A stretch of 64,000 nt of DNA from Vreelandella subglaciescola. Its GTDB lineage: Bacteria; Pseudomonadota; Gammaproteobacteria; Pseudomonadales; Halomonadaceae. Below, piece by piece: positions 3,893 to 39,239 of the stretch (within the stretch, counting starts at the first letter, position 1; each line of letters begins with the position of its first letter). The stretch covers positions 744,001-808,000 of the forward strand of contig NZ_LT670847.1 of assembly GCF_900142895.1 (NCBI RefSeq), in the 5' to 3' direction. The notes under the pieces were generated by a model, which worked only from the letters and a program-made list of their open reading frames with translations, was not told where the DNA came from and did no database searches. Both the position numbers and the translations under genes were made by a program.

Positions 3893-3900
3893 GCCTCCGG

Positions 3901-4074: not shown

Positions 4075-4106
4075 CGCAACGAGAATCACAACAGCACCGC
4101 CCAACC

Positions 4107-8735: not shown

Positions 8736-8794
8736 CAGCGCTTATCATAATTCTTTATGAATCAATATTTATCCGTCGAGAGAGGAGGTTTGAA

Positions 8795-9334: not shown

Positions 9335-9349
9335 AACGGGGAAACGGCG

Positions 9350-9807: not shown

Positions 9808-9869
9808 TCCGAACGAAGCTTTTGACCAGCTACTGCAACTTACGAACCGGCCGCGTCGAGGAGCACCGT

Positions 9870-19297: not shown

Positions 19298-21190
19298 GGT
19301 GAGTAGACCAAGGGAGTCGCACCCTCAGTCTCTCGCAGAACGGTGCGTGAACCTCTCGGCTCACACCGCTCCCATCAAGCAAACGCACCCGACATCCCTT
19401 GCGACCAGTGTGCGAACAGTTTTGGTCTCGCTTGTGCCAGTCGCTCCAGTGTGGCCACCGCTTTCTTCTTCCGTCCTCGAAGATGCTTGTACTTCCGCAT
19501 AGCCCACCTGACCAGTCGCTTATTTACATAACGCGATACACGGTACATTAATGACCGGTAATAGCGTCCATAGTAATTCCACCAACCGTGCAGGTAGGGG
19601 TTGATAAAGCTCGCAATATCCATGATGGATAGACTTGTACGCTGCCCTATCCGCCACTCGCGTACCTTTTGAATAACATCCTTGAGAGAAGATCGACTGA
19701 TGCCCGGGGAAAATCCCATAAAGAGATTCCCTGACCGGCTTTTCACGATGCGCTTCTCGAACGTATAACCAAGGAAGTCAAAAGACGTATGCATATGGCG
19801 TTGAGTTCTACGGTGATCCTGGCAGTAAACAATCTTGGTTTTCTCTGGGTGCAGCTCCAGCCCACAAGCCTTGAACCGTTCACGCAGTCGGTCTAGCAGG
19901 AAATTCGCCTGCTTTTGTGTGCTGCAGTGAAGCAGTCCATCGTCAGCATACCGACACCATTCAATGGTCGGAAAATGCTGACTCATCCAGTAATCAAAGG
20001 CGTAGTGCAGAAAAAGGTTTGCCAGAACGGGGCTGATCACCCCGCCTTGTGGCGTTCCCTTATCACGCGTCGCCATTTGACCACCAGCGTGGATCATTGG
20101 GGCCTTCAACCATCGTCGGATATAAAGCCTGACCCATGGGTTTGTGGTGTGTCGATCGACCGCTTTCATCAGCAGACGATGCGGAATGTTGTCGAACAGA
20201 CCACGAATATCAAACTCCAGCACCCATGAGTATCGCCAGCATCGTTTCCGAGTGACTCCAATCGCTTGTATCGCCGATTTCCCCGGGCGATACCCGTACG
20301 AGTCTGGCAGAAAATGTGGCTCTACTTGGGGTTCAAACTGAAGTTTGACGGCCATCTGGGCAATCCTGTCTGACACAGTCGGAATGCCCAGTATTCGTTC
20401 GCCTCCTGATTTCTTGGGAATGGAGACGGCTCGAACAGGAGGTGGCATATAGCTACCCGACGACATTCGGTTCCAGATCTTGTAAAGATTGTTGCTGCGA
20501 TCACGATCAAAATCCTTCAGAGATTGCCGATCGACACCGGCAGCCCCCGCATTGGCTTTGACCCGCTTGTACGCTTCAACGATTAGCCATTTATCAATGT
20601 CGTATGGTTTTGCCTGATGCCGACCCTCCTCCTGCTTTCGCAGTTGAGATCGGCTTTCAGGCGGCTTGATGCTGCCCCTTCGCTCCACCTCCATTACAGA
20701 GGCTTCATCACTACTACGAGCAGCTCCGTCCCAGTATCGTGCCTCGGTACTCTCGGCCTTATGGTGGTCGCCATTTGTGCCTTCTCCCTTGAACATCACG
20801 ATGACTGGTTCCCGCAGTTCCCAGCAAGAGCCTGATATTGAGTCGCGCCCACTTTATGCCGGACACCACTTGCGCAGCATTCGGAATACGCCCACAAGCT
20901 TATCCCGAGGATGGGACACGCCCTCGGTTTTGATGTCACATATGGTTTTCGACACGTCTTCATGGGTTCGCTTTCGCTCGCCTCTCAATATCACACCTGA
21001 CTGCATCAACTGTGCAGCCTTTTAACCCAACGCTCACCACAAACACTCTTAATGCATGCAGCTTGGGCTGGTTTGAAGCCTGCTTCCGACAGCCGACTTC
21101 GGTGGGCCCTACCACCATCTCTTGCTGAGCTTATGGCTCAGTCGAATATCTGCCTCCTTGCAGCCATTCTCCATTGCCTCTACGGCACAC
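19298..21190 (-). mobile_element. Complete group II intron
   Basis: The 5' end is GTGTGCC (group II consensus GTGYG) right after the exon GGAGTTGGGACA. Near the 3' end, domain V-like sequence GAGCCGAGAGGTTCACGC and a domain VI stem precede CTACTCAC at the exon boundary. The intron holds one maturase ORF. The exon joint is exact against copy 1 if the intron ends at 19298; a one-base ambiguity (19298/19299) remains. Confidence 0.88.
19375..20799 (-). CDS. ltrA: Group II intron reverse transcriptase/maturase
   Basis: 474 residues. RT blocks are visible: VDRQSLKDF, PPPVRAVSIPKKSGGERILGIP, the FDIRGLFDNIPH block, GTPQGGVISPVLANLFLHY, catalytic CRYADDGLLHC (YADD) and LHPEKTKIVY. The maturase/X domain ends with INPYLHGWWNYYGRYYRS. 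No HNH endonuclease domain is evident at the C-terminus (ends RKKKAVATLERLAQARPKLF...), so mobility would be endonuclease-independent or limited. It supports splicing and retrohoming of the intron. Confidence 0.93.
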   Translation of the reverse strand: MMFKGEGTNGDHHKAESTEARYWDGAARSSDEASVMEVERRGSIKPPESRSQLRKQEEGRHQAKPYDIDKWLIVEAYKRVKANAGAAGVDRQSLKDFDRDRSNNLYKIWNRMSSGSYMPPPVRAVSIPKKSGGERILGIPTVSDRIAQMAVKLQFEPQVEPHFLPDSYGYRPGKSAIQAIGVTRKRCWRYSWVLEFDIRGLFDNIPHRLLMKAVDRHTTNPWVRLYIRRWLKAPMIHAGGQMATRDKGTPQGGVISPVLANLFLHYAFDYWMSQHFPTIEWCRYADDGLLHCSTQKQANFLLDRLRERFKACGLELHPEKTKIVYCQDHRRTQRHMHTSFDFLGYTFEKRIVKSRSGNLFMGFSPGISRSSLKDVIQKVREWRIGQRTSLSIMDIASFINPYLHGWWNYYGRYYRSLMYRVSRYVNKRLVRWAMRKYKHLRGRKKKAVATLERLAQARPKLFAHWSQGMSGAFA

Positions 21191-21628
21191 TGTCCCAACT
21201 CCACACCTGGTTCGGGCCCGAGGCGGTAAAGCTGGTCGGCTCAACGAGCTTTCGGGCCGGCTTCATGCGGCCTCGGTGGTTTAGCTGTTGGTGCTTTTTC
21301 AGCACCCGATAAAACGACGATTCCGAGGCCAAATAACGGCCTTGGTCTGCCAGTCGCGGGACTATTTGCGACGGTGGCAAGCTTTGGTATTCCGTTTGGC
21401 AGCAAGTGGTTAGAATCGCCTCTTCTTCCGCTTGCGTCAGCTGATGGGCCTGCACAACCCGCACGGCCTGTGAGCGCTGATCCGTGGTCACATCGCCATT
21501 GGCCTGCCGCCAGCGTTTTAACGTGCGCTGGCTTAGCCCCATCAGTTCTGCCGCCTTGTAGCGAGCGGCGCCACCGGCTACCGCTTCATCAACGTCTTTT
21601 AGCAGCCTTGTACGTTCGCTCAACGGCG

Positions 21629-22135
21629 TCAGTTGTCCTCGTTGTCCGGGTCTTCGCCGTACAAGGCTTCGAGCTTTTTTGACAGCACCAGTAACGAGGT
21701 CGTCTCCGCCAAGGCCCGGTCTTTACGGCGAACCTCCGATGTCAGCTTCTTGATCGTCTGGCGGTCTTCTTTACGCTGTTTTTGGGCCACTTTTTCCTGA
21801 CTTTCGTGCTTGTCGGCGCCTTGGAGACAGGCGTCTTTCCAGCGCTGCACCTGCTCAGGATATACGCCCTTTTCACGGCAGTAGACGCCCAGCTCGGTCT
21901 CCGATAAAGGGGCCGTTTCAATCACCACGGCCAGCTTGGCATCAGCAGACCATTCGTCTCCGGTATTACGCTTGCCTGGCACAGGCACTCCTTGTTGTCG
22001 GCATGTTTTCAGCCAACCATACAGGGTTGCATTCGCTATGCCTTCCTCGGCGGCGACCGACGCCACACTGCGGTTTTCTGGCGGTAATAGCTTCTTCAAC
22101 ACCGCGGCCTTACGTTCCTCGGAATAACGTGGCAT
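21629..22135 (-). CDS. IS3-family OrfA of copy 2
   Basis: 168 residues starting MPRYSEERK, nearly identical to OrfA of copy 1 (K/E and a few other changes). Intact frame. Confidence 0.8.
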   Translation of the reverse strand: MPRYSEERKAAVLKKLLPPENRSVASVAAEEGIANATLYGWLKTCRQQGVPVPGKRNTGDEWSADAKLAVVIETAPLSETELGVYCREKGVYPEQVQRWKDACLQGADKHESQEKVAQKQRKEDRQTIKKLTSEVRRKDRALAETTSLLVLSKKLEALYGEDPDNEDN

Positions 22136-22209
22136 GAACCATCCTATGCCGCCCATTCTGATGTGAATTCAGGCGAAATCGCCAACCGGACAACTAGGCT
22201 GACAGAGGG

Positions 22210-22281
22210 GGCTGCCTCCAGCAGCGCCACGATGGCGTGCGAGCCGATGTATCCGGCCCCTCCGGTTACCAATATCTTCAT
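22210..22281 (-). pseudogene. galE: UDP-glucose 4-epimerase N-terminal fragment
   Basis: Reverse frame MKILVTGGAGYIGSHAIVAL, the Rossmann start of GalE-type epimerases, cut after about 24 codons by the end of IS3 copy 2. Its ATG overlaps the stop of the upstream glycosyltransferase fragment (ATGA), so the two were an operon in a polysaccharide cluster. Confidence 0.75.
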
Positions 22282-22622
22282 TTAGTTCCTTGCAGCTGTT
22301 GTTGATCGCTCAGGTCATCGCCCCGGTACACGTCCAAGTAGCGTTGTGCAGTGGCCTCCAGAGAAAAGCGCTCCACCACCCGCTGACGGGCCGCTCGGCC
22401 CAGGTTCTCACGTTCGTCATCCGACAGACGCAGGGCGCGCCCCATCGCCTCTGCCAGCGCCTTGGCATTCCGCGGCGGCACCAGGAAGCCCGCATCTTCG
22501 ACCACCTCCCGCACGCCCCCGCAGTCGGTGGCCACCACCGGGCGCTCGCAGGCCATGGCTTCCGCCACCACCAGCCCGAAGCCTTCCCAGGCGGAGGAGA
22601 GCACGAAAACATCACTGGCGGC
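22278..22622 (-). pseudogene. GT4-family glycosyltransferase, C-terminal fragment
   Basis: 114 codons beginning AASDVFVLSSAWEGFGLVVA, with the GT-B/GT4 donor-binding EX7E region (EGFGLVVAEAM), then PVVATDCGGVREVV and a natural C-terminus. The acceptor domain is missing. The fragment is fused in frame to the end of an ISL3 transposase fragment, giving a 409-codon chimeric ORF (22278-23507). Confidence 0.8.
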
Positions 22623-23507
22623 CATCAGTTCCTGCAGCGCGGCGATTTGGTTAGCCGTCAGGTTGCCGGATTCTGCATTGCGCAGGACGGCCCAGCGTAG
22701 GTGCTTAGGGTGTTCCTGCTCGCGCCGCTCACGCTTTCTGACCTCATCAAGGGCGCGCGTGAAGATCTGCACGATATGGAACCAATCGACGGTGACCTCG
22801 GCCTTGGGCAGGTGCTCTTCCACGCCTTTGAGAAACGCCGGTGACATATCGCAGACCACCTCCTGCACGGTTTGGGGATCGCCCTGATGCGCGGCCAGGA
22901 ACTCGCTGAAGGCCTCGACGGTGGCCTTGCCTCGGCCGGGTACCGCAAAGACAACCGGCTCGGTCTTGCGTTGCATATCCAGGAATACGGTGACGTAGCG
23001 ATGGCCGCGTTTGGCCGCCGTTTCATCAAGCCCAACGGCCTTGACCTGAGAGAGGTCAAGTTGCTCGAGCATGCGCCCGACATAGTGATGCACAATGCGC
23101 CATAGCCGCTTGTCGGTGATCTCGATCAGCCGGGCGGCGGCGAGCACCGGCATCTCCCTGACCAGGGCCATGGCGGCCTGTTCAAACAACAGGGTGAAGT
23201 CGCTACCGGGGCGGGCCCAAGGTACCTCGATCCGCTTAATGCCGTGCGTGGGGCACTTGGTGCGTGGCACGCGGGCGTGCAAGTAGCAGTGATGTTGAAA
23301 GAAGTTCAGGTGCCGCCAGGTCTTGCTGGTGAAATCATGGGCCGGGCAAGCCTCACCACACTCTGGGCAAGAATAGAGGCTGCCACGTTCTGCCTCGACG
23401 GTGAGGTCCAAACGATGGGGTGACACGGCGGTATCCAGGTGCTGGTCCTTGAGAATCCAAGGCGCTTCAAGGCCCAAGCCGAGGGTCATAATCTGGGTGC
23501 CGTCCAT
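22623..23507 (-). pseudogene. ISL3-family transposase, N-terminal two-thirds
   Basis: Begins MDGTQIMTLGLGLEAPW; shows the ISL3 zinc-finger (CPECGEACPAHD ... RTKCPTHG), the HTH and the first catalytic Asp context VKAVGLDETAAKRGHRYVTVFLD, then VTVDWFHIVQIF. It breaks after NQIAALQELM and continues without a stop into glycosyltransferase sequence. The last part of the DDE domain is missing, so it is inactive. Confidence 0.82.
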
Positions 23508-23561
23508 GTCATACGTCCTGTCGTTGTGGGGACCATATTTTGGCCCAGTTCAGGAGGTGAA

Positions 23562-23690
23562 TTCCACACCCAACGTCGAAGAGCCTTTAAATTGTGCTTC
23601 ACTCATTGGGTTATCATTGCTCACGCGGGGCCGACTATGACTGGCGGTTATGGCCAGCTCGGAGAGCAAGTCCAGGTAACAGTGGGCGGT
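23562..23690 (-). pseudogene. Small fragment of another IS3-family OrfB
   Basis: The reverse frame includes ELAITASHSRPRVSNDNPMSEAQFKG, the region around the catalytic Glu of IS3 transposases. It is distinct from the two copies above (they read MLMSHSRPRVSNDNPYSEALF). Both ends are cut. Confidence 0.65.
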
Positions 23691-23696
23691 CATGGG

Positions 23697-23993
23697 AGCG
23701 AGTCCACACGCGGGCCCGCAACCTGATGCGGCTTGGACTGACTGAGCAGAGGGCTTGGGAAAGCGCAACGAATGGGCGGGGGCCGTGGTGGAACAGCGGT
23801 GCATCTCATATGAATGCAGCGTCCCCCTAAAAAGGTCTTTTATCGCCTGTCTCTGGTAAGCTTGCTGGATACGATGAACCGGCTTCAGAGCCGACCGTGA
23901 ACTGCCGTGGTATGGAATCGTCGGTCCGACGCATCGGTGCCCGGTGGCGTGAGAGGACGGAGGAGGAAGCTCCCCCTCCTACTCGATTCCAGT
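23697..23993 (+). mobile_element. 3' end of a second, different group II intron
   Basis: The + strand encodes a maturase C-terminus (RNLMRLGLTEQRAWESATNG, RGPWWNSGASHMNA), then after a frameshift RLSLVSLLDTMNRLQSRP and a stop. The following RNA-type sequence (GTGCCCGGTGGCGTGAGAGG, a GC-rich stem, CCTACTCGATT) is typical of domains V-VI of the introns whose maturases end this way. The 5' nine-tenths are missing. Unrelated to the intron at 19298-21190. Confidence 0.7.
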
Positions 23994-24049
23994 GTTTAAA
24001 TTTCGCTTATGGCTTTAAATTACTTTCACCTGCCGCAACTTGTCCGACA

Positions 24050-24535
24050 TCAATGCTTAATCGGTTTAAAATCCGGGTCATTAAAATACGTGACGTAGTT
24101 TTCAATCGCCCCGATTACCTTTACCGCACCATCCTGCGCATTGGTTTTGCTTTCCATCGCAGTTGAGCCTTCCATCAAATCGGCAATGATCAGGTGCAGC
24201 TGGGCATCTGCCTCAGGCTCAAGCTTGCAATTCTCAACCATGTAATTGACTTCATTGGTGACTTTCTTGGCCAGTGCAGCGTACTTTTCCTCTGCTAGTT
24301 GATTGGAGTGGATAGCATCGTATTCTTTGTCCACGGCATTTCGGATATTAGTCATGGCCCGACTTAATGGTTCATCGATCGCCCACTTGCTGCCGCTATC
24401 GAGTTTAAGTTCCGCCACACCGTCGCCGTGGTCGTGGTCGGTATTTGCCGGTGCAGCTATTGCAGTAGCCCCCAGCAAGCTCAGCACCATACCAGTGATG
24501 GTTGCGAAGCTCGAAAGTCTGGATTTGATATTCAT
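24050..24535 (-). CDS. Exported His-containing protein next to a broken two-component system (DnrO-like)
   Basis: 161 residues with a signal peptide (VLSLLGATAIA|AP), then HDHGDG at the mature N-terminus, a possible metal site. The rest is helical (WAIDEPLSRAMTNIRNAV, a conserved-looking Cys in VENCKLEP). It resembles proteins labelled DnrO in marine gammaproteobacteria (from memory). RBS AGGAGA. A TTAAG-type palindrome lies 58-76 bp upstream of the start, just after the kinase stop, suggesting control by the adjacent response regulator. Confidence 0.65.
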   Translation of the reverse strand: MNIKSRLSSFATITGMVLSLLGATAIAAPANTDHDHGDGVAELKLDSGSKWAIDEPLSRAMTNIRNAVDKEYDAIHSNQLAEEKYAALAKKVTNEVNYMVENCKLEPEADAQLHLIIADLMEGSTAMESKTNAQDGAVKVIGAIENYVTYFNDPDFKPIKH

Positions 24536-24592
24536 AACATTCTCCTGTGGGTAACGCCGTGTCTTCGGCTTGAAAGGAGTATCTCAGACTCA

Positions 24593-24611
24593 CCTTAATC
24601 TAGGCTTAAGG
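24593..24611 (-). promoter_or_regulatory. Putative response-regulator box
   Basis: CCTTAAGCCTAGATTAAGG: an inverted repeat CCTTAA/TTAAGG that also contains the direct repeat TTAAG-N6-TTAAG, like PmrA/QseB-type sites. It lies between the kinase stop and the exported protein gene. Confidence 0.5.
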
Positions 24612-24686
24612 AAACGGATTACCGCCAATATAAAATATCGACCGCCTTTAGACCGGCATCGCCCTAAAACGCACGGTTACAGCTAG

Positions 24687-25515
24687 GGGGCGTTAACAAT
24701 TGATGATGAGCGTTGATCTGATTTAGCATGGAAGGATTTGAGGATAGACTATGGCTCGGCTACTCCTGCGTGATGATCAATGGCGTCGAATTGAGCCCCT
24801 CCTTCACGGCAAGGCCTCGGACCGCGGGGTGACAGCCAAGGACAATCGGCTATTCGTAGAAGCCATTCTCTGGATTGCCCGGACAGGCGCTCCCTGGCGC
24901 GATCTACCCGACGCCTTTGGTCGTTGGCACACGGCCTATATGCGCTATAACCGCTGGTGTAAGAAGGGGGTATGGCAGCAGATTTTCGACACGTTAGCCG
25001 ATGATCCCGACCTGGAACAGCTGATGATCGATGGCAGTATTGTCAGGGTCCATCAACAGGGAGCGGCAAAAAAACCGCTCAGAACACGGAAGCCATGGGC
25101 AAGTCTCGAGGGGGCTTGAGCACCAAGATCCATGCCGCGGTCGATGCGCTGGGTAACCCAGTACGGTTGGTTCTTACACCGGGCCAGGCGTCGGAGTATG
25201 GTGCCGCTCCAGCGTTACTAGACGGTTTTTCCCCGCAAGCGGTGCTGGGCGACAAGGGATATGATTCCACTGCTTTGCGGGACATTATTCAGGCCGTGGG
25301 TGCAGAGCCGGTGATTCCTCCGAAAAAGAATCGCTTGGCGCACATCGAAGTAGACTGGCACTGCTACAAAGATCGCAATCTGGTAGAGAGGTTCTTTCAG
25401 AAAATCAAGCAGTTCAGACGATTGTCTACACGCTATGAGCGACTGGCAAGAAACTACCAGTCACTACTCTGTCTCGTGTCAGCCGTCATATGGCTGGCCT
25501 AATTGTTAACGCCCC
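24687..25515 (+). mobile_element. IS5-family element (829 bp)
   Basis: Perfect terminal inverted repeats GGGGCGTTAACAATT, flanked by the 4-bp duplication CTAG (24683-24686, 25516-25519). Two frames encode the transposase: 24751-25119 and 25095-25502, offset by -1 and joined at an A7 run (25068-25074). This is a plausible programmed frameshift: the joined reading KKTAQNTEAMGKSRGGLSTKIHA matches the family. The DDE residues lie in MIDGSIVRVH, LGDKGYDS and RNLVERFFQKIK, so the element may be active. Confidence 0.9.
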
Positions 25516-26048
25516 CTAGGCCTTCCCCCGTGTCACCATCTTCAAGCGTTAGAGATGCTCCATGCAGCTCCGCTATACGCTCTGCAATCGATAGTCCCAG
25601 TCCGCTGCCTTCCTCACCACTGCCAAGCACACGATAAAAACGCGACACCGCTCCCTTTCGCTCCTCCTCGGGAATTCCTGGCCCGGTATCAACAATCTGA
25701 AGCAACACCTCACTGCCGATTCGTTTAATTCGCACATCAACCAGCCCACCGCTAGGCGTGTAACGAACCGCGTTATCAACAAGGTTTCGCACAAGAACTC
25801 CCAGCAAGGTTGCATCACCAAGGACCAGCCCTTCATCGTTTGCCTCGAAGCCTAGGTCTACGCCCTTACGTATCGCCACCGGTGCATGCAAGGCGACACG
25901 CTCGCTTACCACGGCAGAAAGTTTGATCTGTTGTTGATTAACGGGCGTTTTTTCTGGATCAATGCGCGAAAGCACAAGCAATGAAGTGGTTATAGTTTCC
26001 CGGACACACAAACGCAGGTAATCTCACCTGCCCATCGAGGTGTGTGTC

Positions 26049-26348
26049 ATGAGCCAGAAAAAAGCCAATTCCTATACCGCTGAATTTAAAGAGGCCGCCG
26101 TCAAATTGGCGACGGAATCAAATCAACCGGTGACCCAATCTGCCAGGGAGCTGGGCGTTAACGTCAATACGCTGCATACCTGGGTCGACAAGTACTCTGG
26201 TAAACGAGAGGTCGGCAGTTCCGGCCAGGTGAATGACCCGCACCTGTATGAAGAGCTGAAACAGCTGCGGCGCGAGAATGCTCGCCTCAAGGAGGAACGC
26301 GAACTGCTAAAAAAGGCGGCGGCCTTCTTCGCCAAGGAATCTCGCTGA
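26049..26348 (+). CDS. IS3-family OrfA (kinase insertion)
   Basis: 99 residues; HTH_Tnp_1 motif ([22 protein letters not shown]) and C-terminal leucine zipper ([20 protein letters not shown]). GTG at 26040 is an alternative start. Confidence 0.85.
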
Positions 26349-26395
26349 GGTACGCCTTCATCGAAGCACACCAGAGAGCGTTCGATACTGCCCTG

Positions 26396-27211
26396 ATGTG
26401 CCGAGTGTTTGAGGTGTCTCGCAGTGGTTACTATGAGTGGCGCTCTCGGCCACCCTGCCAGCGAGATCAGCAAGATGAGGCGTTGAAGGCGAGGATCCGA
26501 GACCACCATACGCAGAGCCGGGCAACCTACGGCACGCGGCGTATCCAGCAGACACTGGCCAGTGAGGGCGAGGCGATCAGCCGTCGTCGGCTTGCCAGGC
26601 TAATGAGAGAGGAAGGCTTGGTGTGTAAGACACGGCGGAAATTTAAGGCGACCACGAATTCAAAGCACGGCAAGCCGGTTGCTTCGAATCTTCTGAATCG
26701 CACCTTCTCGGCCGCGCAGCCGGATCAAGCCTATGTCGGTGACATCACCTACATTCCGACACGGGAAGGCTGGCTCTACCTGGCCGTCTTCATCGACCTC
26801 TACTCGCGAGCGGTGGTGGGCTGGTCGATGGATAGCCGCATGCCCGCCTCACTGGTACATGATGCGCTGACCATGGCCGTCCGGAAGCGGCAGCCAGAAA
26901 ATGGGTTGCTGGTACATAGTGACCGAGGTAGCCAGTATGCCTCCGATAGTTTTCAGTGGTTGCTAAAGCAGCATGACTTCCGGTGCAGCATGAGCCGAAA
27001 GGGGAATTGCTGGGATAACGCACCCTCCGAGAGCTTCTTTCACACCCTGAAGACTGAGCTGGTGTACCACGAAGATTTCAGAACGCGAGAAAAGGCGAAA
27101 CAAGCCATTTTCGAGTATATCGAAGTGTTTTATAACCGAGTTCGGCTGCACTCCAGCAACGGCTACATGAGTCCGATGGACTATGAGTCAGAGCGACGAA
27201 CGGCCGCTTGA
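26396..27211 (+). CDS. IS3-family OrfB transposase (kinase insertion)
   Basis: 271 residues in this frame; family homology extends upstream ([15 protein letters not shown]), so translation probably starts by -1 frameshifting from orfA. The catalytic triad contexts [16 protein letters not shown] and NAPSESFF are present. Confidence 0.88.
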
Positions 27212-28131
27212 AAATGTGTCCGGAAAACTGTTGCCAGATCACAATTGCTCAACCAGATGAACGGCACGGTCGGTACCACTGATCACCTTTTCCAACGCCT
27301 GCTCCCGATGGCTCGAATCGCGCGCTGCATAGGCCACCTGCGCCTGTGTTTTTATGGCGGCAAGCGGTGTGCGCAGTTCGTGGGCGGCATCCGCGGTAAA
27401 GCGACGTTCGTGGTCAAGTAAAACCTGCAAGCGGACAAAAAGAGCATTTAAGGCATCTTGCAGCGGTAAAACTTCACGGGGAGTACCCGTGATATCGAGC
27501 GGTTCAAGCTTGTCCGGCTCACGCTGCTTTACTTCACCAGTAAAGCGAGAAAGCGGCGAAAGCCCTGCACCAACAGATATCCAGATCAGTATGCCCAGTG
27601 CAGGAACAGCAAAATACAAAGGATGCAGCAGATGGGTTGCTATGCTTTCGGCTAGTGCGTTGCGTAGTTCATAGCGCTCACCAACACGCACATTGCTAAG
27701 ACCGGCTTTGTCCCAATGGCTATAGATACGGTATTGAGTACCATTGATGGAGGCGTTTTCAAATCCGCCATACTGTGTGCCTAAGCGTTTTTCAGGAGCC
27801 GTACTTGAATTCAAAAGTAAGGTGCCGTCATGCAGCCATACCTGCAGTATGGTGTCGGTATAGTCGGGAATCTGTTGCGAGCTGGTGCTCTCTAAACTTT
27901 TTAAATTCTCTGAGCTATCTAAACCCTTTGAACTATCTAAACCCTCTGAACTTGCAAACTGCACGGATACCCGTTCAGCCGTTTTCACCAAACGGGCATC
28001 GAGCATGGTGCCAATTTCACTACGCGCATCAAGGTAGGTGAAGAACGCCGTGGCAATCCAGGCAAACAGCACCGATACCGCAAGAATCGCAAACAAACGC
28101 CAGCGTAATGATGTTCGAGTTATTGTCAAAT

Positions 28132-29480
28132 CTGGTGTATGGGCATCAGGCAACGTTCCCGTCTGATTGATCCTCCACTGCTTCTCCGTCCTGGAACTCG
28201 ACGTTGTTAACGACCAGTTCCAGGAGCTGAAATCCCTTAATGCGTTTCCACCGTTTCTGGGCGGTTTGCATCAACTTGAATACCATCGCTAAGGTGGTGT
28301 CTCTGGACCCACAGCCCCGGCTTTTCTTCGTCCTTAGCCGCACCGTGGCAAAGGTCGACTCAATCGGGTTGGTGGTGCGCAGATGAATCCAATGCACCGC
28401 CGGAAAATCGTAAAAGGCCAGTAACTCCTCCCGATCTTTTTTAAGGCACCCCATGGCCTTCGGGTACTTGTCCTGGAAACGCTTCAGTGCGCTGTCAAAC
28501 GCCGTGTGGGCGGCGTCCCGGGTCTCGGCCAGGTAGATCTCATGCAAAGCCGACTTGACCTTGGGTTGCAGGGCCTTGGGAAGCTTATCGAGCACATTGG
28601 CCGTCTTATGCACCCAGCACCGCTGGTGCCGGGTCTCTGGGTAGGCCTTGGTCAGGGCCTTCCAAAAGCCCAAGGCACCGTCGCCCACAGCCAGCTTCGG
28701 GGCGACCCCCAAATGCTGGCTCTTCAGGCTCTCAAGCAGTTCCAGCCAACTCGCCTCGGACTCCCGGTGTCCGTCCTCAACAGCGACCAGTTCCTTGTGG
28801 CCATGCTCGGTGACACCGACGATGACCAGCAAGCACAGCTTGTTGTCCATACGCACGTTGCTGTAAACGCCGTCGGCCCACCAGTAGACATAGCGCTTCT
28901 GGCTCAGATCCCGGCGCTGCCAAGCCTTGTGCTCGTCCTGCCACCGGGCCTTCAAGCGGGAGACCGTATTGGCGGATAAACCTTTGGCCTGATCGCCCAC
29001 CAAGGCGCTCAGGGCTTCCTGAAAGTCTCCGGACGAGACGCCTCGCAGGTAGAGCCAGGGGATCAGCTCATCCAGACTCTTGGCCCGCTTCAGGTACGGC
29101 GGCAATAACGTGCTATTGAAACGGATGCCGGTCCCGCTGCGGTCCCGGACCTTGGGTACTTGCACTTCGACATCGCCAACACCGGTCTGGACGTGACGCT
29201 GAGGCAGGTGGCCATTGCGAACCACAGCCTGACGACCGTCCGGTGCCTTACGATCCGCATACTGCTCAAGCAGCGCTGCCAGCTCGGCATCCACAGCCTC
29301 AGCAATTAGCTTGCGGGCCCCATTACGGATCGTTTCGTGCAATAGATCCTGTTCCAACTCTGGTTGTGAAAGAGCGTGCAGGGTAGACTTTGACATGGCG
29401 TATCATTCCTCTGTTGGTTGTGATCTGGCGAGATCAACCAACAGGATACGCCACCTCTTCAGCCTGCTTCCATACACCAG
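28132..29480 (-). mobile_element. IS256-family element (1349 bp)
   Basis: Terminal inverted repeats begin CTGGTGTATGG on both sides, flanked by the 4-bp repeat AAAT (28128-28131, 29481-29484). IS256 elements usually make 8-9 bp duplications, but excision with 4 bp is what restores the kinase frame. One intact transposase gene. Confidence 0.87.
28146..29396 (-). CDS. IS256-family (mutator-type) transposase
   Basis: 416 residues. Shows the family's N-terminal DEL block, RNGHLPQRHVQTGVGDVEVQVPK, catalytic Asp in WWADGVYSNVR, Asp in AVGDGALGFWKAL, QRCWVHKTANVLDKLP and the NPIESTFATVRLRT Glu region. Complete and probably functional. Its 3' end overlaps an apparent TTG start of the kinase remnant, which is an artefact of the insertion. 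Confidence 0.93.
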   Translation of the reverse strand: MSKSTLHALSQPELEQDLLHETIRNGARKLIAEAVDAELAALLEQYADRKAPDGRQAVVRNGHLPQRHVQTGVGDVEVQVPKVRDRSGTGIRFNSTLLPPYLKRAKSLDELIPWLYLRGVSSGDFQEALSALVGDQAKGLSANTVSRLKARWQDEHKAWQRRDLSQKRYVYWWADGVYSNVRMDNKLCLLVIVGVTEHGHKELVAVEDGHRESEASWLELLESLKSQHLGVAPKLAVGDGALGFWKALTKAYPETRHQRCWVHKTANVLDKLPKALQPKVKSALHEIYLAETRDAAHTAFDSALKRFQDKYPKAMGCLKKDREELLAFYDFPAVHWIHLRTTNPIESTFATVRLRTKKSRGCGSRDTTLAMVFKLMQTAQKRWKRIKGFQLLELVVNNVEFQDGEAVEDQSDGNVA

Positions 29481-29504
29481 AAATCACCATAGCTCATGAT
29501 GTTC

Positions 29505-30170
29505 TCATGGCCCAGGCTTCTCAATCATGTACCCAACACCGCGGATAGTGCGGATCAGTTGCCGATCCAGTTTTCGGCGCAAATGATGCACGAAAACTTC
29601 AATCGCATTGCTCTCTACTTCCTCCCCCCAGCCGTACAGCTGCTCCTCGATTTGTGCTTTTGACATAACTCGCCCTGCGTTGAGCAACAGTGTATGAAGA
29701 ATGGCGAATTCACGTGCAGAGAGATCGACAGTGCCGCCAGACAAAGACACCGAATGACTGGCTGGATCGACCCGGAGCTCCCCGTGACTGATGATCGGTT
29801 CAGCATACCCCTTGGAGCGTCGCAGCAATGCCCGGAGCCGTGCCTGCAACTCAGCGAGATCAAAAGGTTTTCCCAGATAATCATCGGCACCCGCATCCAG
29901 GCCAGCGACTCGGTCCTCCACGGCATCACGAGCGGTCAGGATCAGAATCGGTAAGATCTGCCCTCTTGCCCGGACCCGTCTCAAAAGCTCCATGCCCGAC
30001 AGCCTCGGTAGGCCGAGGTCAAGCACAACAGCATCGTAGCTACCCATGGCGAGAGCAGCATCGGCTTGCTGCCCATCCAGCGCCCAGTCAACCACCAGGC
30101 CTGACTGGGCAATGCCAGCAGCAATTCCGTCACCGAGTAATTTGTCGTCTTCAACGAGGAGAATCTTCAT
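29505..30170 (-). CDS. OmpR-family response regulator (QseB/PmrA type)
   Basis: 221 residues from MKILLVEDD (a TTG three codons upstream is possible; no strong RBS at either). Receiver domain: DD near residue 8, phospho-acceptor Asp in YDAVVLDLGLPRLSG, Thr in ILTARD, Lys in GKPFDLAEL. The C-terminal winged helix (LSAREFAILHTLL ... EVFVHHLRRKL) is complete. Its partner kinase immediately downstream is destroyed by insertions, so it is orphaned and may rely on other kinases such as the paralogue at 36110. Confidence 0.92.
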   Translation of the reverse strand: MKILLVEDDKLLGDGIAAGIAQSGLVVDWALDGQQADAALAMGSYDAVVLDLGLPRLSGMELLRRVRARGQILPILILTARDAVEDRVAGLDAGADDYLGKPFDLAELQARLRALLRRSKGYAEPIISHGELRVDPASHSVSLSGGTVDLSAREFAILHTLLLNAGRVMSKAQIEEQLYGWGEEVESNAIEVFVHHLRRKLDRQLIRTIRGVGYMIEKPGP

Positions 30171-30196
30171 GCGTAGCAACTGACAAGGTGAGTGTT

Positions 30197-30225
30197 GTTA
30201 GCCGGAGAAGGCCTGGCCCTCCCCG
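30197..30225 (-). terminator. GC-rich hairpin after the P-type ATPase
   Basis: Nearly palindromic GCCGGAGAAGGCC/GGCCCTCCCCGGC with two G-T-compatible mismatches, 13 bp past the ATPase stop. It lacks a T-tract, so it may only pause or stabilise the 3' end. Confidence 0.35.
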
Positions 30226-30237
30226 GCGCTTATGCCG

Positions 30238-32208
30238 CTAAACAGCCCGTGCTGGCTGCTGAGCAGCAGGCGGAGCCTTCTGCACGCCCGCTGGGCGAGC
30301 ACGTAGCAACCGCATGCCATTGACCACAACCACTAGCACTGAGATCTGGTGGATGAACATGCCACCGGCCATGTGCACCTCGTTGGCGAACACCCCGGCG
30401 AGGAGACCGGTAACCGTTAGCAGCGCAATCACTACGTTCTGGCGAATGTTGTTCAGAGTCGCCCGGGCAAGCCCAATTGCTTCGGGAATCTTGCCGAGAT
30501 CGTCCGCCATCAGCGCGATATCGGCGCTCTCGATTGCCACGTCGGTTCCGGCGGCCCCCATGGCGATGCCGATATCCGCTGCGGCCAAGGCTGGGGCATC
30601 GTTGATGCCATCGCCAACCATCGCCGTGGGCCCGCTCTCTCGCTGAATCTTTTTGATAGCTTCGAGTTTCTGCTCAGGCAAGAGCCCAGCGTGCACCTCA
30701 TCAATTCCCAGTTCGCGGGCAACCCGCCATGCGCTGGCGGCATGGTCGCCGGTGAGCATTACCAAGCGCTTCACCCCAGTCTTACGAAGAGCCTGCAAGG
30801 CCGCAACAGCGTCGGGGCGAACGCGATCGGCGAACCCGAGCAGCCCAATCACAACACCGTCGACGGCGATCGCTGCGGCGGTCTCACCCCGTGAATGAAG
30901 ATCCTCCAGCGCCGTAATCGCTGCCGCAGGCCACTCTTCAACCCGGGTTTCAATCCAATCGGGGCGACCGATCTCGACTTTCCGATCCTGCCAGCCGGCA
31001 CTGATGCCGCCGCCCGGTGCTGTATCGAAGCTATCCGCCCGGGGGCCAACATAGCTCTCTGGCAAGGCGCGCTCGACCGCCCGACCTAAGGGGTGTTCCG
31101 AGCCACTCTCCGCCAGCGCGGCCCAGCGCAGCAAACGAGTGCCGGTCGAACCTTCATCCGTTATTGTCGGCAGTGCTGGAATGCCAGACAGCGGCGTGAT
31201 CGTCATCACTTCAGGGCGCCCTTCCGTGAGGGTGCCGGTCTTATCGAAAGCAACAGCTTTGATACGACCTGCTGTCTCCAAGTATTCACCACCTTTGATC
31301 AAAATCCCGTCGCGAGCCGCCCGGCCGATGCCAGCGATTATCGAGATGGGTGTGGAGATAACCAACGCACCCGGGCAACCGATTACCAGCAGCGTTAGCG
31401 CTAGGGCGACGTCCTTCGATATCACATAGGCGCCGATCGCCAGAACGATGATCATCGGCGTGTACCAGCTAGCAAAGCGCTCGATCATTCTCTGGGTCGG
31501 GGCCTTGGCCTCTTGGGCCTCCTCAACACGCTGGATGATTCGCGCTAGGGTGGTATCGGCACCTACGCCCTCAGCGTGGATCTCAAGGTAACCGTTATGG
31601 CTTACCGTGCCCGCAAACACCTTGTCGCCCACCTGCTTCTCGGCAGGAATTGGCTCGCCGGTAATTGCGCTCTCGTCGATCGCGGAACGACCGCTGAGGA
31701 TTGCACCATCAACGCCGATACGCCCACCTGGGCGAACCACCACCGTTTCCCCGGGAATTACCTCGTGGGGCGCTACATTAATCTCGCTACCCTCGCGGAA
31801 CACCGTAACCTCGGTCGGCGCCAGCGCCAGCATATCCTTCAGCGCGGAGCGGGTGCGGGCCAGAGTACGCGCCTCTAGGTAGCCGCCCAGCACAAACAAA
31901 AATGTGACTGCGGCAGATTCCCAGTATTCGCCGATGAATATGGCGCCAACGGCGGCAATCGTAACCAGCAATTCAATGCTGATCGCCTTTGCACGCAACG
32001 CGGCGAACGCCCGCAGTGCGATATCCGTACCGGCCACGGCCGCAGCGGTAAGCCAAAGCGCATCGGTAAGCCAGGAAGGGCCACCGAGAAAGTAGCTGGC
32101 GACGCCACCGAGGCTCGCCAAACCCGCCACAAGGGCTACTGTGCCGCGCCGGTGCGCTGGTGAGCGCAACTGGCGAGCCCAGTGGGACAATGTATTGATA
32201 AATTTCAT
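30238..32208 (-). CDS. Heavy-metal P1B-type ATPase, CPG variant
   Basis: 656 residues with no N-terminal metal-binding domain. Order of motifs: actuator DESAITGEPIPAEK, membrane metal site VIGCPGALVISTP, phosphorylation [19 protein letters not shown] (HP motif), GDGINDAPALAAADIGIAMG. The canonical CPC is CPG here. ZntA/CadA-like exporters of Cd, Zn or Pb are the nearest relatives by overall sequence, but the altered site makes metal specificity uncertain. RBS GAGGTG. Downstream of a separate HMA protein that may deliver metal. Confidence 0.88.
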   Translation of the reverse strand: MKFINTLSHWARQLRSPAHRRGTVALVAGLASLGGVASYFLGGPSWLTDALWLTAAAVAGTDIALRAFAALRAKAISIELLVTIAAVGAIFIGEYWESAAVTFLFVLGGYLEARTLARTRSALKDMLALAPTEVTVFREGSEINVAPHEVIPGETVVVRPGGRIGVDGAILSGRSAIDESAITGEPIPAEKQVGDKVFAGTVSHNGYLEIHAEGVGADTTLARIIQRVEEAQEAKAPTQRMIERFASWYTPMIIVLAIGAYVISKDVALALTLLVIGCPGALVISTPISIIAGIGRAARDGILIKGGEYLETAGRIKAVAFDKTGTLTEGRPEVMTITPLSGIPALPTITDEGSTGTRLLRWAALAESGSEHPLGRAVERALPESYVGPRADSFDTAPGGGISAGWQDRKVEIGRPDWIETRVEEWPAAAITALEDLHSRGETAAAIAVDGVVIGLLGFADRVRPDAVAALQALRKTGVKRLVMLTGDHAASAWRVARELGIDEVHAGLLPEQKLEAIKKIQRESGPTAMVGDGINDAPALAAADIGIAMGAAGTDVAIESADIALMADDLGKIPEAIGLARATLNNIRQNVVIALLTVTGLLAGVFANEVHMAGGMFIHQISVLVVVVNGMRLLRARPAGVQKAPPAAQQPARAV

Positions 32209-32270
32209 GATTGTTCACCTCATGGTGAAACTGCCGGGCAGGCTTGTGGCCCGCCCGAACGTTTGTGAAC

Positions 32271-32486
32271 TCAGAATGCGCTGATGCGCGCCTCGTAGCC
32301 GACTTCACGCACGGCTGAAAGCAGCTGCTCAGCCTTGACTTGTTCGGCATCGTGCTCGACCTCGATGCGTCCGGTCGCGAAATGGACCTTGGCATTAGTC
32401 ACACCCCCGAGTCGGCCCAGCGCTTTCTCGATCTTGGTAATGCAGGAAGGACAGTTCAGCTCATCGCTACGCAGTAGGGTCTTCAT
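32271..32486 (-). CDS. Heavy-metal-associated (HMA) chaperone-like protein
   Basis: 71 residues with the ferredoxin-like HMA pattern; the metal site is NCPSC near residues 11-15 (usually GMTCxxC). RBS AGGAG. It precedes the ATPase gene, which lacks its own HMA domain, so the pair looks like a split exporter plus chaperone. A GC-rich hairpin (32228-32258) separates the two genes. Confidence 0.85.
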   Translation of the reverse strand: MKTLLRSDELNCPSCITKIEKALGRLGGVTNAKVHFATGRIEVEHDAEQVKAEQLLSAVREVGYEARISAF

Positions 32487-32578
32487 CTCTCATCTCCTGT
32501 CTGTGTTTGGGTCACGACCAGAATGAGTGATGTGCGTGGTGTGTTACATGAGCCGCAACAAGTAGCTCCACTGAATTG

Positions 32579-33337
32579 TCATAAAATGCGGGAAATGCAC
32601 AGGCGGGCCAGGTTCGTGCGAATGCGAATGCGTATCCACTGTCGACCGGTTTCGATGTCACCGCTGCGCCGCAACCCGGAAATGACCCTACTCACGGTCT
32701 CTGCGGTGGTTGCTACCATGGCGGCGAGGTCCTGTTGCGACAGCGGCGACTGGATCAGAATGCCACCATCGTCAGCTTCCCCCAGCCGGTCAGCGAGACG
32801 CACCAGCACCCGTGCGACCCGTGCCTCCACAGGCAAAGTGCTGATCGCGCAGATCGTTGCTTGAGCCGCTTCGAGATCACGGGCCACAGCATCAAGGACG
32901 TTCAATGCCACTTCGGAATGAGTGCGCAGCAAATATCGGAAGTCGGCGGTCGTGATCGCCAGCACGCAACAGGGTGTCTGCGCGAATGCGCTCTAGGGGT
33001 AGCAGCGCTGACCGAGCATGGTCAGGCCACCGAATAAGTCGCTCTGCCCCAACAGGTCGAGCAGCACCTCCTCCCCAGAGGCGCTGTACTGAAGCAGCTT
33101 GACTCTGCCGGGGGCGACCAGAAATAGCGCTTCGGCCGGCTCGCCCTCATGGTAGATCGCCCCACCGGCCGGGTAGTTGAAGGCACGAAAGTGGTAGTTC
33201 ACAGCGTCGAGCGCCGGTGCCGCTAACCCTTTGAAATAGGGAACGTCACTTAGGATCCGAGCGCGCAGTTCGGTCGAGCAGTGGCCAAGCTCAACGCGCT
33301 CATCACTTAGCGGTGTCGTGCGCTTTCGCTTAATCAT
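32579..33337 (-). pseudogene. Crp/Fnr-family regulator with an in-frame amber codon
   Basis: Starts MIKRKRTTP after GGAGAAG. The cyclic-nucleotide-like domain reads FRAFNYPAGGAIYHEGEPAEALFLVAPGRVKLL. At 32993-32995 the frame has TAG (QRCYP*SAFAQTPCCVLAI) and then continues in the same frame through the dimer helix to the HTH (SQQDLAAMVATTAETVSRVISGLR) at 32579. One base change (for example GAG to TAG) explains it. Upstream of the HMA/ATPase genes, it may have controlled them. Confidence 0.85.
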
Positions 33338-33530
33338 TGCTTCTCCGTTACGCAGGCCCGATCGTTGAGATGAGCCAACCATAACCCTTTCATCGATGAC
33401 GGACTTAATCATCAACGGTAATCCCCCGATAGTCCACCGGATGCCACAAAAGGTGTTGTTCGGGATTAGTTGACCGCTACACAATTGTTAGCTGAGCCTA
33501 ATGGCATGAGCATGATAAGCAAACACCACA

Positions 33531-34220
33531 TTATGCAACCACGCCAAATATTCGACCTACTCCGGCCGTAAGTGCCATCGCGAGCGCACCCCAAAATGTG
33601 ACTCTGATTGCGCCGATAGCAATTGAAGCACCACCTGCACTCGCAGCAATCCCGCCCAGAAGAGCGAGAAACACCAGTGAGGACACCGCAACAACAGAAA
33701 TAAGTTGGCTACCGGGTACAAACCACGCTGCCACCAGCGGAAGTGCTGCACCAACTGTAAAAGTGACTGCCGAAGAGAACGCCGCTTGAACGGGCTGGGC
33801 GCTAACACTTTCCGAGATTCCTATTTCATCCCTGGCGTGTGCACCAAGTGCATCGTGAGCCATTAGCTGCTCAGCAACTTGCTTCGCCAGAGCCGACTCA
33901 AGCCCTCTGCCTTCGTATATTAAAGCGAGCTCCTCTTTTTCAGACTCAAAATCTTGTTCTAATGACCGTTTTTCAATGGCTAGATCCGCCTTTTCAGTAT
34001 CAGACTGAGAGCTGACGGACACGTACTCACCCGCAGCCATAGACATAGCGCCTGCCACTAAACCGGCAAGCCCTGCCAGAAGAATGCCTTCTTGAGCACT
34101 GCTGGCAGCTGCTACACCAATAATAAGACTTGCCGTAGAAACTATTCCGTCGTTCGCACCGAGTACTGCGGCACGTAACCAACCTACGCGATGTGACCGA
34201 TGGACTTCACTATGACTCAT
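33531..34220 (-). CDS. VIT1/CCC1-family transporter
   Basis: 229 residues from ATG (an upstream TTG adds four codons). N-terminal LRAAVLGANDGIVSTASLIIGV is the VIT1 signature, followed by AGLVAGAMSMAAGEYVSVSSQSDTE and the metal-binding cytoplasmic helices (EKRSLEQDFESEKEELALIYEGRG). Members move Fe(II)/Mn(II) out of the cytosol. Not in an obvious operon. Confidence 0.9.
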   Translation of the reverse strand: MSHSEVHRSHRVGWLRAAVLGANDGIVSTASLIIGVAAASSAQEGILLAGLAGLVAGAMSMAAGEYVSVSSQSDTEKADLAIEKRSLEQDFESEKEELALIYEGRGLESALAKQVAEQLMAHDALGAHARDEIGISESVSAQPVQAAFSSAVTFTVGAALPLVAAWFVPGSQLISVVAVSSLVFLALLGGIAASAGGASIAIGAIRVTFWGALAMALTAGVGRIFGVVA

Positions 34221-36109: not shown

Positions 36110-37438
36110 TTATTCGACCACGGCAATATTGAGTTCGGCTTCAAAACCGTCGCTCTGGCCTGAGGCTGGCGATCGGAGGTTCAGGGTAATGCCCGCACCA
36201 CTGGCGATGGCGTCCACAATCGCAAGCCCGATGCCGGAGCCCACTGTTTTTGTATCGGAGCGGACAAAACGGTTTCGCAACAAGGCGAGTTTCTCTGGTG
36301 GTACGAGCTCACCGCGATTAACCACCCGCAGGATGCCCTCGCCTGTAAGGCTAACATTCACAGGCTCATTGTCCGTGCCGTGCCTGAGGGCATTCTCGAT
36401 CAGATTCCGAACCAGAATGGCGAAGGCATCCAGGTCCAGTAATGACGTAACGTCACCATCAGGCAGGTTGAGCAGGAGTCGACCGGGCGCCTGGTGATCA
36501 TAATCGCTGGCCACCATCCGCAGTATGGGCACCAGGTTGTTAGCCTGCTCCGACAAGGCGCTGCCCCCTTCAGCCTTCGCCAATTCAAGCAGCTTCTCTG
36601 ACAGTCGTGACAGGGTGCGAAGCGACTCTTCAATCTCGCTGGCTCGTACTTTAACGCCTGTATCCTGCGTTTCTGTTTTTAACCGCTGTAGCTTGGCTAG
36701 CGCCGTTGCCAGCGGGGTTCGCAATTCATGGGCGCTGTTGGCGGTAAAACTGCGCTCTGCTTCAAGGGCGCGGCGCAAACGTTCAAGCAACCGGTTCACC
36801 GAGATCATGATGGGTTCAAACTCTTCCGGTAAACGCTCGACCGCGACGGGAGAAAGATCGCCCCCACCGCGGACTTCTATGGACTGCTGCAATTGCACAA
36901 CACGGCGAAGCGAACGTTTTATCACCCACCACACCCCGACCAGGCTGATGGGAATCAGAAATATAAGTGGCAACAGCAATGCAAGGCTCGTATCCAGAAC
37001 GGCTTCGCGCCTGTGGTCCAAAGGTTCGGCAACCTCAATGTACAGGGTTCCGCTGATGGCTGACTCCCCGTATATTCGGTGAGTTAGCGTGTCAGAGAAG
37101 CCCTCTCGCGGTTTGGTGCCAAAAATGTCGGGGTCTGCGTCGTGGGATTGCAGCAGCAGTTTGCCCAACTTATCACGAACCAGATAGGTGAGATACTCGT
37201 TGTGTTCTTTCAGGGCCAATGCCCGCTCCAGGCTTGGGTCCCCTTCCCGGTTCAGTATGTCGGTCACCGCCAATGGCAGGATACGCTGCGCTGTTTCCTC
37301 CAATGCACTGTCGAACACCTCGTTCATTTCGTGCCGGGCCACCACGCCTGACGCGATAACACCCAGCAACCAGAGCAAGGTCACGCCAAGGGTAAGCCAG
37401 GTGCCAAGGGTTCTGTGTAAGCTGGATTTAGTGCTCAT
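36110..37438 (-). CDS. Sensor histidine kinase (QseC/PmrB type)
   Basis: 442 residues: helix 1, a periplasmic sensor of about 130 residues, helix 2 (LALLLPLIFLIPISLVGVWWVI), HAMP-like linker, H-box SAHELRTPLATALAKLQ, N-box LVRNLIENALRHG, and G-boxes ending GSGIGLAIVDAIA. Intact. Overlaps the response-regulator gene by 11 bp, so the two are translationally coupled. Signal unknown; the neighbours suggest metal or redox. Confidence 0.92.
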   Translation of the reverse strand: MSTKSSLHRTLGTWLTLGVTLLWLLGVIASGVVARHEMNEVFDSALEETAQRILPLAVTDILNREGDPSLERALALKEHNEYLTYLVRDKLGKLLLQSHDADPDIFGTKPREGFSDTLTHRIYGESAISGTLYIEVAEPLDHRREAVLDTSLALLLPLIFLIPISLVGVWWVIKRSLRRVVQLQQSIEVRGGGDLSPVAVERLPEEFEPIMISVNRLLERLRRALEAERSFTANSAHELRTPLATALAKLQRLKTETQDTGVKVRASEIEESLRTLSRLSEKLLELAKAEGGSALSEQANNLVPILRMVASDYDHQAPGRLLLNLPDGDVTSLLDLDAFAILVRNLIENALRHGTDNEPVNVSLTGEGILRVVNRGELVPPEKLALLRNRFVRSDTKTVGSGIGLAIVDAIASGAGITLNLRSPASGQSDGFEAELNIAVVE

Positions 37439-38093
37439 TCGGTTCCAGCCTGTAGCCCATGCCTCTGACGGTCACTATGGCATCGTGCCCCAGTTTTTTG
37501 CGCATACGGCTGATGTAAACCTCTATGGTGTTGCTCTCAATTTCGGCGCCGAACTGGTAAAGCCGGTCTTCAAGCTGAGCCCGCGATAGCAGTATTCCCG
37601 GGCGTTGCAGAAAACCCTCAAACAGCGCCCATTCACGGGCAGTAAGCTCCACCGGCTGGCCGTTGCGGCTGATGCGATGGTCACCCAGATCCACTTCAAG
37701 ATCGCCAACACGCACCAGAGGATTCGGGTTGCCGCGATAACGGCGTGCCACGGCGGCCACCCGGGCAGAGAGTTCTGATAAATCAAAAGGCTTTACCAGA
37801 TAATCGTCGGCACCGGCATTCAGCCCTGCAATGCGGTCTGACACCTGGTCTCTGGCGGTCAGAATAATCACGGGGGTTGTGTCACCGGTTGCCCTCAGTT
37901 TTTTCAAAAAATCAAAACCGTGACCGTCTGGCAGCATCAGGTCGAGCAAAATCAGATTATAAGGCGTGGTTTTCACACTCGTATCAGCGAAAGCGAGGCT
38001 CTGAACCCAGTCCACGGCATGGCCATCTTCGCTGATCTGATCCCGCACGGCCTCACCCAACCCGGTTGTATCCTCAACCAACAGTACCCGCAT
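37428..38093 (-). CDS. OmpR-family response regulator (QseB/PmrA type)
   Basis: 221 residues: MRVLLVEDT, phospho-acceptor in YNLILLDLMLPDGHG, LTARDQ, VKPFDLSEL; winged helix LTAREWALFEGFL and EVYISRMRKKLG. Same subfamily and order as the pair at 29505. The 229-bp divergent region to the PepSY gene carries a TTAAG-type site. Probable targets are both flanking gene sets (inference). Confidence 0.93.
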   Translation of the reverse strand: MRVLLVEDTTGLGEAVRDQISEDGHAVDWVQSLAFADTSVKTTPYNLILLDLMLPDGHGFDFLKKLRATGDTTPVIILTARDQVSDRIAGLNAGADDYLVKPFDLSELSARVAAVARRYRGNPNPLVRVGDLEVDLGDHRISRNGQPVELTAREWALFEGFLQRPGILLSRAQLEDRLYQFGAEIESNTIEVYISRMRKKLGHDAIVTVRGMGYRLEPNEH

Positions 38094-38265
38094 ATCTCAC
38101 CCTTCCCGTGATCACCAACAGAACATACTACAGCCATTACCTGACAGCCGTCTGAAACCGCATTATTACTGCTCCGTTCCTCCACCAGCGCCTTCCCTTG
38201 CCTGTTGGGCATTTACTAAACAAAGCGTTTACCTGCAGCTCATTCAGGCCAGTGTCAGGTAGCAA

Positions 38266-38301
38266 CCTTAAGATTGATTCAACGGACACAACGGACACAA
38301 C
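38266..38301 (+). promoter_or_regulatory. TTAAG-type site and 9-bp tandem repeat before the PepSY operon
   Basis: CCTTAAGATTGATTCAACGG (TTAAG, five bases, TTCAA) followed by two and a half copies of ACGGACACA, 22-57 bp before the PepSY start. The first part resembles the boxes at 24593 and 36066. Operator function is inferred. Confidence 0.4.
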
Positions 38302-38322
38302 GGATTCATCGGGAGACATTTC

Positions 38323-38730: not shown

Positions 38731-38747
38731 TTAAAGGAGAGTAGATC

Positions 38748-39221: not shown

Positions 39222-39239
39222 CTGACGGGAGCCAGCTTC

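Follow-up and report, generated by a model that had tools for sequence, protein, structure and literature searches.

A sensor kinase gene of Vreelandella subglaciescola split by insertion elements of three families

In uropathogenic Escherichia coli without QseC, QseB is phosphorylated by PmrB (PMC5677524), and in Vibrio cholerae without DbfS, DbfR is phosphorylated by another donor (PMC12714742), as stated in the available portions of these reports. Insertion sequences (IS) feature in other losses of signaling and of function: zinc-resistant isolates of Cupriavidus metallidurans carry lesions in cnrY or cnrX, IS insertions among them (PMC4803752), and IS-expanded genomes, of which Shigella is an example, combine many IS copies with gene interruption and loss of function in the course of the expansion (PMC7373316). 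Here we analyzed a stretch of 64,000 nucleotides (the window) from the halophile Vreelandella subglaciescola (NCBI RefSeq assembly GCF_900142895.1, contig NZ_LT670847.1, positions 744,001 to 808,000 of the forward strand), in which the gene for a QseC/PmrB-like sensor kinase (24648-29508 of the window, minus strand) lies in four pieces, split by elements of the IS256, IS3, and IS5 families. Most probably, the kinase gene was acquired by horizontal transfer, died recently when it was broken during IS expansion, and took its later hits neutrally, that is, ordinary genome wear, since an unrelated gene of the same genome has likewise been broken three times.

The locus shares with QseBC and PmrAB the order of regulator and kinase, the best family matches of both proteins, and the 2CSK_N sensor domain; it differs in that two intact relatives of the kinase score below the QseC and PmrB cut-offs. 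As in DbfQRS of V. cholerae, a small exported protein is encoded next to the regulator-kinase pair, but DbfQ, a PepSY protein, has its gene upstream in the available account of that system (PMC12714742), whereas the 161-amino-acid (aa) protein found here is encoded downstream, lacks a Pfam match, and has a four-helix model. The cnrY/cnrX case resembles ours in that several IS families struck one small signaling locus and disabled the regulator of a metal-related neighborhood. There, however, selection was imposed, the strain table gives one lesion per mutant, and control runs through a sigma factor (PMC4803752), while the present locus has three insertions in one allele and a two-component pair, and no selection is shown. 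Compared with IS pseudogenes of the Shigella type, as far as the available part of that report describes them (PMC7373316), we have one genome of the Halomonas clade without population data, and three families in one regulatory gene. In a literature search, no case of one kinase gene with several insertions appeared among the titles and abstract openings listed.

The interrupted kinase gene and its three elements

Judged by separate alignments, the four pieces are colinear with the intact relative P0002 (449 aa). Piece A (29496-29508, minus strand, as are the other three) consists of the start codon and the MRTS codons, corresponds to residues 1-4, and has the N terminus of P0002. Piece B (27242-28116; residues 3-284, 91% identity) carries the 2CSK_N sensor domain and most of the HisKA domain, inside which it ends, the HisKA match covering positions 3-57 of 66. 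The end of HisKA and the ATPase domain, the latter recognized by HATPase_c, are found in piece C (25520-25981; residues 284-436, 97% identity), and the last codons and the stop are found in piece D (24648-24682; residues 439-449), which is identical to the final 11 residues of P0002; AVTVRFRAMPV, at the C-terminal end of the kinase, is encoded by 24651-24683. The non-duplicated piece lengths total 1377 nt, equal to 458 codons plus the stop and, as lengths, a multiple of three.

The domains of a sensor kinase of this class (2CSK_N, HisKA, and HATPase_c) are all present in P0002, and the same three are recovered over pieces B and C of the window. A comparison with QseC and PmrB kinases had been suggested in an earlier, sequence-only reading of this DNA; the kinase does resemble both, but the intact relatives P0002 and P0004 fall below both curated cut-offs, with 294.1 and 293.2 bits against 475 for the QseC equivalog NF007664 and 198.6 and 201.5 bits against 314 for the PmrB equivalog NF008025. 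Because these two relatives score so, we place the kinase, on their evidence, outside both curated families and call it QseC/PmrB-like. The heavy-metal sensor kinase model TIGR01386 likewise scored the two relatives (192.4 and 192.0 bits) below its cut-off of 292.55.

The ends of each element were set by means of its other copies in the same genome, and the flanks were then read for target repeats. IS256-family elements have long terminal inverted repeats and duplicate 8 to 9 bp of their target, and the 1379-bp element at 28117-29495 (minus strand) conforms to this rule. Its transposase (28146-29396) is of the Mutator type, with a Transposase_mut match of 235 bits over residues 17-385 of 416. 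The element ends are 26-bp imperfect inverted repeats, 81% complementary, and the four genomic copies are identical across all 1379 bp, both 26-bp ends included. Directly outside these ends stands the 9-bp target repeat ATGATGTTC, at 29496-29504 and 28108-28116. The duplication is exact in three of the four copies and takes the form of a 10-bp repeat shifted by one base in the fourth; the 9-mers flanking the other copies are unrelated. The target repeat had previously been read as AAAT, which we rejected, since those bases lie inside the terminal repeat of the element and are identical in the four copies.

The position of the 9-bp repeat outside the element also moves the beginning of the gene. 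The kinase frame had been said to start at 29497, a position at the edge of the IS256 element; the start codon is therefore 29508-29506 instead, it opens the sequence MRTSLRWRLF, an N terminus common to P0002 and its close relatives, and it overlaps the stop codon of the response-regulator gene (29507-29505). Residues 3-4 are doubled at the joint between pieces A and B because of the 9-bp target duplication. The proposal that the spliced frame would align across all three joints held as regards colinearity with P0002 and total length, but the first joint had been misdrawn.

IS3-family elements contain orfA and an orfB with an rve domain, have TG...CA ends, and generate duplications of 3 to 5 bp. 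The element at 25982-27241 (plus strand) has open reading frames at 26040-26348 and 26396-27211; the domain scan, made for the second of these, identified rve and HTH_21. There are two full, identical genomic copies and eight short partial matches. Both full copies have TG...CA ends and a repeat of the expected kind, which is CTT at the other copy and, as in the earlier reading, CAA at the kinase (25979-25981 and 27242-27244).

In the IS5 family, DUF4096 and a DDE transposase occupy two overlapping frames, and 2 to 4 bp of target are duplicated. The element within 24683-25519 (plus strand) follows this pattern, with two overlapping transposase reading frames and matches to DUF4096 (PF13340) and DDE_Tnp_1 (PF01609), and we take it to belong to the two-frame, IS427-like subgroup. 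It occurs in four genomic copies, besides one short partial match. CTAG does flank the element, as had been reported, but a 4-bp CTAG duplication fits less well than a duplication of TA within YTAG, which describes all four copies; TA is preferred because in one of the four CTAG stands on one side only, facing a TTAG. Three of the copies are identical to one another, and the copy in the kinase gene differs from them at 17 of 829 positions (98% identity). Because of these differences, its source may not be theirs; perhaps it arrived with the module.

With ends and target repeats located for each, the claim that three elements of three families lie within one histidine kinase gene is upheld. The interruptions had further been called exactly reversible. 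At the level of sequence this is correct, in that all repeats are intact, but it does not carry over to cells, and we know of no realistic cellular event in which all three elements would be lost precisely.

Relatives of the module and the age of the loss

Relatives with an uninterrupted kinase, on which the sequence-only reading had staked its account, do exist: 13 of 14 named relative loci have the kinase in one frame, and in the fourteenth, L024, it runs off the contig. A kinase that had seemed broken in locus L013 proved to be an intact 442-aa frame, the first match having begun in the regulator frame. A matching regulator accompanies the kinase in 13 of the 14 loci (partial in L024 and L025), with no regulator match in L026 at the threshold used, and the exported protein accompanies the pair in 11 (L013 to L023). 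Six loci (L013, L014, and L016 to L019) also have a PepSY/flavodoxin reductase, a DUF2271 protein, and a second two-component pair within the flanks examined. The window regulator is 84-87% identical to the regulators adjoining intact kinases in L013 to L019, and the nearest named relative of the module is that of Marinobacter sp. LV10MA510-1 (85%). One further relative, P0033 (276 aa), has no ATPase domain and has a divergent C terminus, maybe through a frameshift.

The exported gene was present in one of 82 same-genus genomes, its own, and absent from the 81 others; of these 82, 73 have a completeness of 90% or more and a contamination of 5% or less. When piece B was searched in a sample of 58 genomes, 36 of them other genomes of the genus, the best-scoring foreign matches among those listed were almost full length and 35-36% identical, and short partial ones reached 38%. 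From this distribution, the module of regulator, kinase, and exported gene is accessory. A plasmid origin was considered and rejected. A tblastn search with P0002 returned 474 plasmid records at an E limit of 1e-30, all below 60% identity, and a DNA search with window positions 20000-34000 returned 37 records, of which the 20 listed cover 9-16% of the query each.

The loss of the kinase looks recent, because the fragments have accumulated no significant excess of amino-acid changes. With three outgroups, changes found in the window only and in P0002 only stood at 10:4, 8:6, and 5:3 for piece B and at 2:3, 2:3, and 1:4 for piece C. These relative-rate counts, which are small and of low power, reveal no significant excess, and decay of the fragments was rejected accordingly.

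Insertion load of the genome and competing explanations

The LeuA protein encoded in the window has its best named matches in Halomonas (93% to Halomonas sp. MAG, 89% to H. piscis), and it is by this one protein that the genome is assigned to the Halomonas clade. The genome, a single contig of 3,110,097 bases, contains at least 101 transposase loci (20 rve, 72 DDE_Tnp_1, 4 Transposase_mut, and 5 ISL3). The figure counts loci with a transposase domain rather than full elements: one of 21 rve rows lay below the cut-off and was dropped, and two neighboring rows among 73 for DDE_Tnp_1 were merged. It is a lower bound, with IS66 and other families outside the search; a PF02371 profile search of the genome gave no match. 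By score pattern, 40 of the 73 DDE_Tnp_1 rows represent the commonest element type, and the two of them that were scanned both carry PF13701.

Insertion in this genome is clustered above uniform expectation. Seven groups of at least three transposase loci within 5 kb were observed, whereas 2000 simulations of uniform insertion gave 1.03 such groups on average and never more than 5; at 8 kb the count was 12, against a mean of 2.37 and a maximum of 7. The kinase group is among the clusters at 3.5, 5, and 8 kb, and six transposase loci, including the three of the kinase, lie between window positions 15131 and 28242. Under uniform insertion, the probability that at least one gene-sized bin receives three hits is 0.03 if the whole genome is open to insertion, 0.12 if half of it is tolerant, 0.24 if one third is, and 0.52 if one fifth is. 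In Shigella, the genic/intergenic insertion ratio per base is 0.11-0.29 in the part of the report available (PMC7373316), and a small insertion-tolerant fraction of the genome is therefore realistic.

We retrieved the six other 5-kb clusters and scanned ten proteins from five of them; the sixth, L052, was listed only. In L049 (genome positions 915-927 kb), a surface-protein gene forms four colinear pieces around three transposase frames (3790-10318 of that locus). It has an intact 502-aa homologue, P0242, and a less similar relative carries the name autotransporter outer membrane protein. The pieces correspond to P0242 residues 1-28, 28-364, from 355 on, and 486-502 (the last at 94% identity, E value 2.5e-5), and the three gaps between them, 1.6-1.7 kb each, each hold a transposase frame. 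For the third piece, the alignment with P0242 continues into the element, and that with P0243 ends at 485 of 500. Because this gene too is split by three elements, triple interruption is, on the evidence of these alignments, not special to the kinase. One transposase element splits the gene for PelG, an exopolysaccharide export protein, in L051 (2885500-2894000; 2557-5674 of that locus), and in L047 (160000-171000), a DctM piece (profile positions 195-359 of 413) stands between two transposase frames. By eye, the stretch past the second frame of L047 resembles the C-terminal end of DctM, and about 4188-8028 of the same locus looks like pieces of a TRAP transporter operon among several IS elements, with the labels DctP and DctQ again assigned by eye.

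Wear of this kind would proceed as follows. A dispensable sensor-kinase gene would have been acquired by horizontal transfer; elements of low-copy families (four, two, and four copies) would have inserted into it in separate events, with the usual target duplication at each; and after the first disabling hit the gene would have become neutral, so that further hits could build up, as happened in at least one other gene. Several observations weigh against such an account. A triple-hit gene has a probability of only 0.03 under uniform insertion over the whole genome; the 3.5-kb clusters, three observed against a mean of 0.55, lie inside the simulated range (maximum 5); and none of the three elements in the kinase belongs to the commonest type of this genome. 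For piece B, one comparison (10:4, p 0.18) tilts towards relaxation, the regulator and exported genes are untouched, as selection on the sensor would also predict, and our sample is one isolate of the species, in which the order and timing of the hits are not seen.

Selection for loss of the sensor, for example under metal stress, would act through removal of a kinase with phosphatase activity, leaving the regulator constitutively active and its targets on. Within the module the sensor alone is hit, and a heavy-metal ATPase gene adjoins the regulator gene; the lesions in cnrY or cnrX and the phosphorylation of QseB and DbfR without their kinases, cited above, provide precedents. Selection accounts for one hit, however, and not for three, because a gene that is already dead takes further hits neutrally. 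The L049 surface-protein gene was also hit three times, and parallel loss of the kinase was not seen among relatives, all 13 that could be checked being intact. The sequence-only reading had suggested such selection, which at least 101 transposase loci, their clustering, and a second triple-hit gene render unnecessary; we regard it as possible but unlikely, and the evidence does not require it.

That the kinase gene is a preferred target of these elements is very improbable. Its pieces do contain 4 CTAG and 16 YTAR sites, where the window predicts 1.4 and 6.6 for a length of 1377 nt, which could favor IS5, and the six transposase loci noted above fall within the surrounding 13 kb. Against such a preference, the remaining IS256 copies are flanked by 9-mers of unrelated sequence, the second IS3 copy lies at CTT, the preference would have to be common to three families whose target rules differ, and the same 13 relatives are uninterrupted. 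The hotspot offered as an alternative in the earlier reading survives only loosely, as a regional cluster of IS, not as a preference for the kinase. It is scarcely credible that the kinase is alive, with pieces B and C expressed from the elements and reassembling as a split kinase: the IS3 cut falls near the boundary of HisKA and the ATPase domain and the fragments are still open and free of a significant change excess, but piece B lacks HisKA positions 58-66 and the native start codon (the fragment protein record P0001 begins inside it), and piece C begins inside HisKA and would need a TTG start in the IS3 end.

The orphaned regulator and its surroundings

As the earlier reading stated, the regulator and exported genes are intact, both being open frames. 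The regulator (29505-30170, minus strand, 221 aa) is of the OmpR type, with Response_reg and Trans_reg_C domains. The exported 161-aa protein (24050-24535, minus strand), downstream of the kinase, had no match in NCBIfam either; its predicted model has a pLDDT (predicted local distance difference test) of 76, and a comparison with the PDB gave 262 matches at E values up to 10, none at 0.001 or below. In the aligned family, H34, H36, and C103 are invariant in 12 of 12 sequences. A search of 24530-25600 yielded one promoter against 0.7 expected and two terminators against 0.9.

Four further kinase loci of the genome match piece B, one of them inside the window. The window also has, on the minus strand, an intact counterpart of the second two-component pair of the six loci above (kinase 36110-37438, regulator 37428-38093), which by its domains is of the same type as the first. 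This pair and reductase genes lie at 36110-41465, with genes for the heavy-metal ATPase, a VIT-family protein, and a ferric-reductase-like protein between.

Other features of the window concern rearrangement and mobile DNA. A 409-aa frame at 22278-23507 (minus strand) combines the opening portion of an ISL3 transposase with the C-terminal portion of a group 1 glycosyltransferase and is probably a fusion left by rearrangement. A group II intron maturase (19375-20799, minus strand) sits inside the IS-rich stretch, and at 46543-47937 (plus strand) a transposase appears frame-broken, with DDE matches at 47308-47562 and 47537-47761 in different frames. The frame at 41682-43130 (minus strand) encodes an SBF (sodium/bile-acid-type) transporter of 482 aa, in which the SBF match extends up to residue 258 and, by eye, the C-terminal part seems unrelated.

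Left without its own kinase and phosphatase, the intact regulator would be either silent or phosphorylated by other donors, and by analogy with the loss of QseC and DbfS it may be active rather than silent. One candidate donor is the intact kinase at 36110-37438, about 6.6 kb away, whose relative lies near the pair in Marinobacter. Loss of the sensor would then have rewired the circuit, with one sensor serving two regulators in a metal and redox gene island; we think this improbable.

Several insertions in a single regulatory gene are easily mistaken for selection if the genome-wide load is left uncounted. The locus is also a natural sensor knock-out that keeps the regulator and the exported gene, and as such it would be useful for learning how an orphaned regulator behaves.

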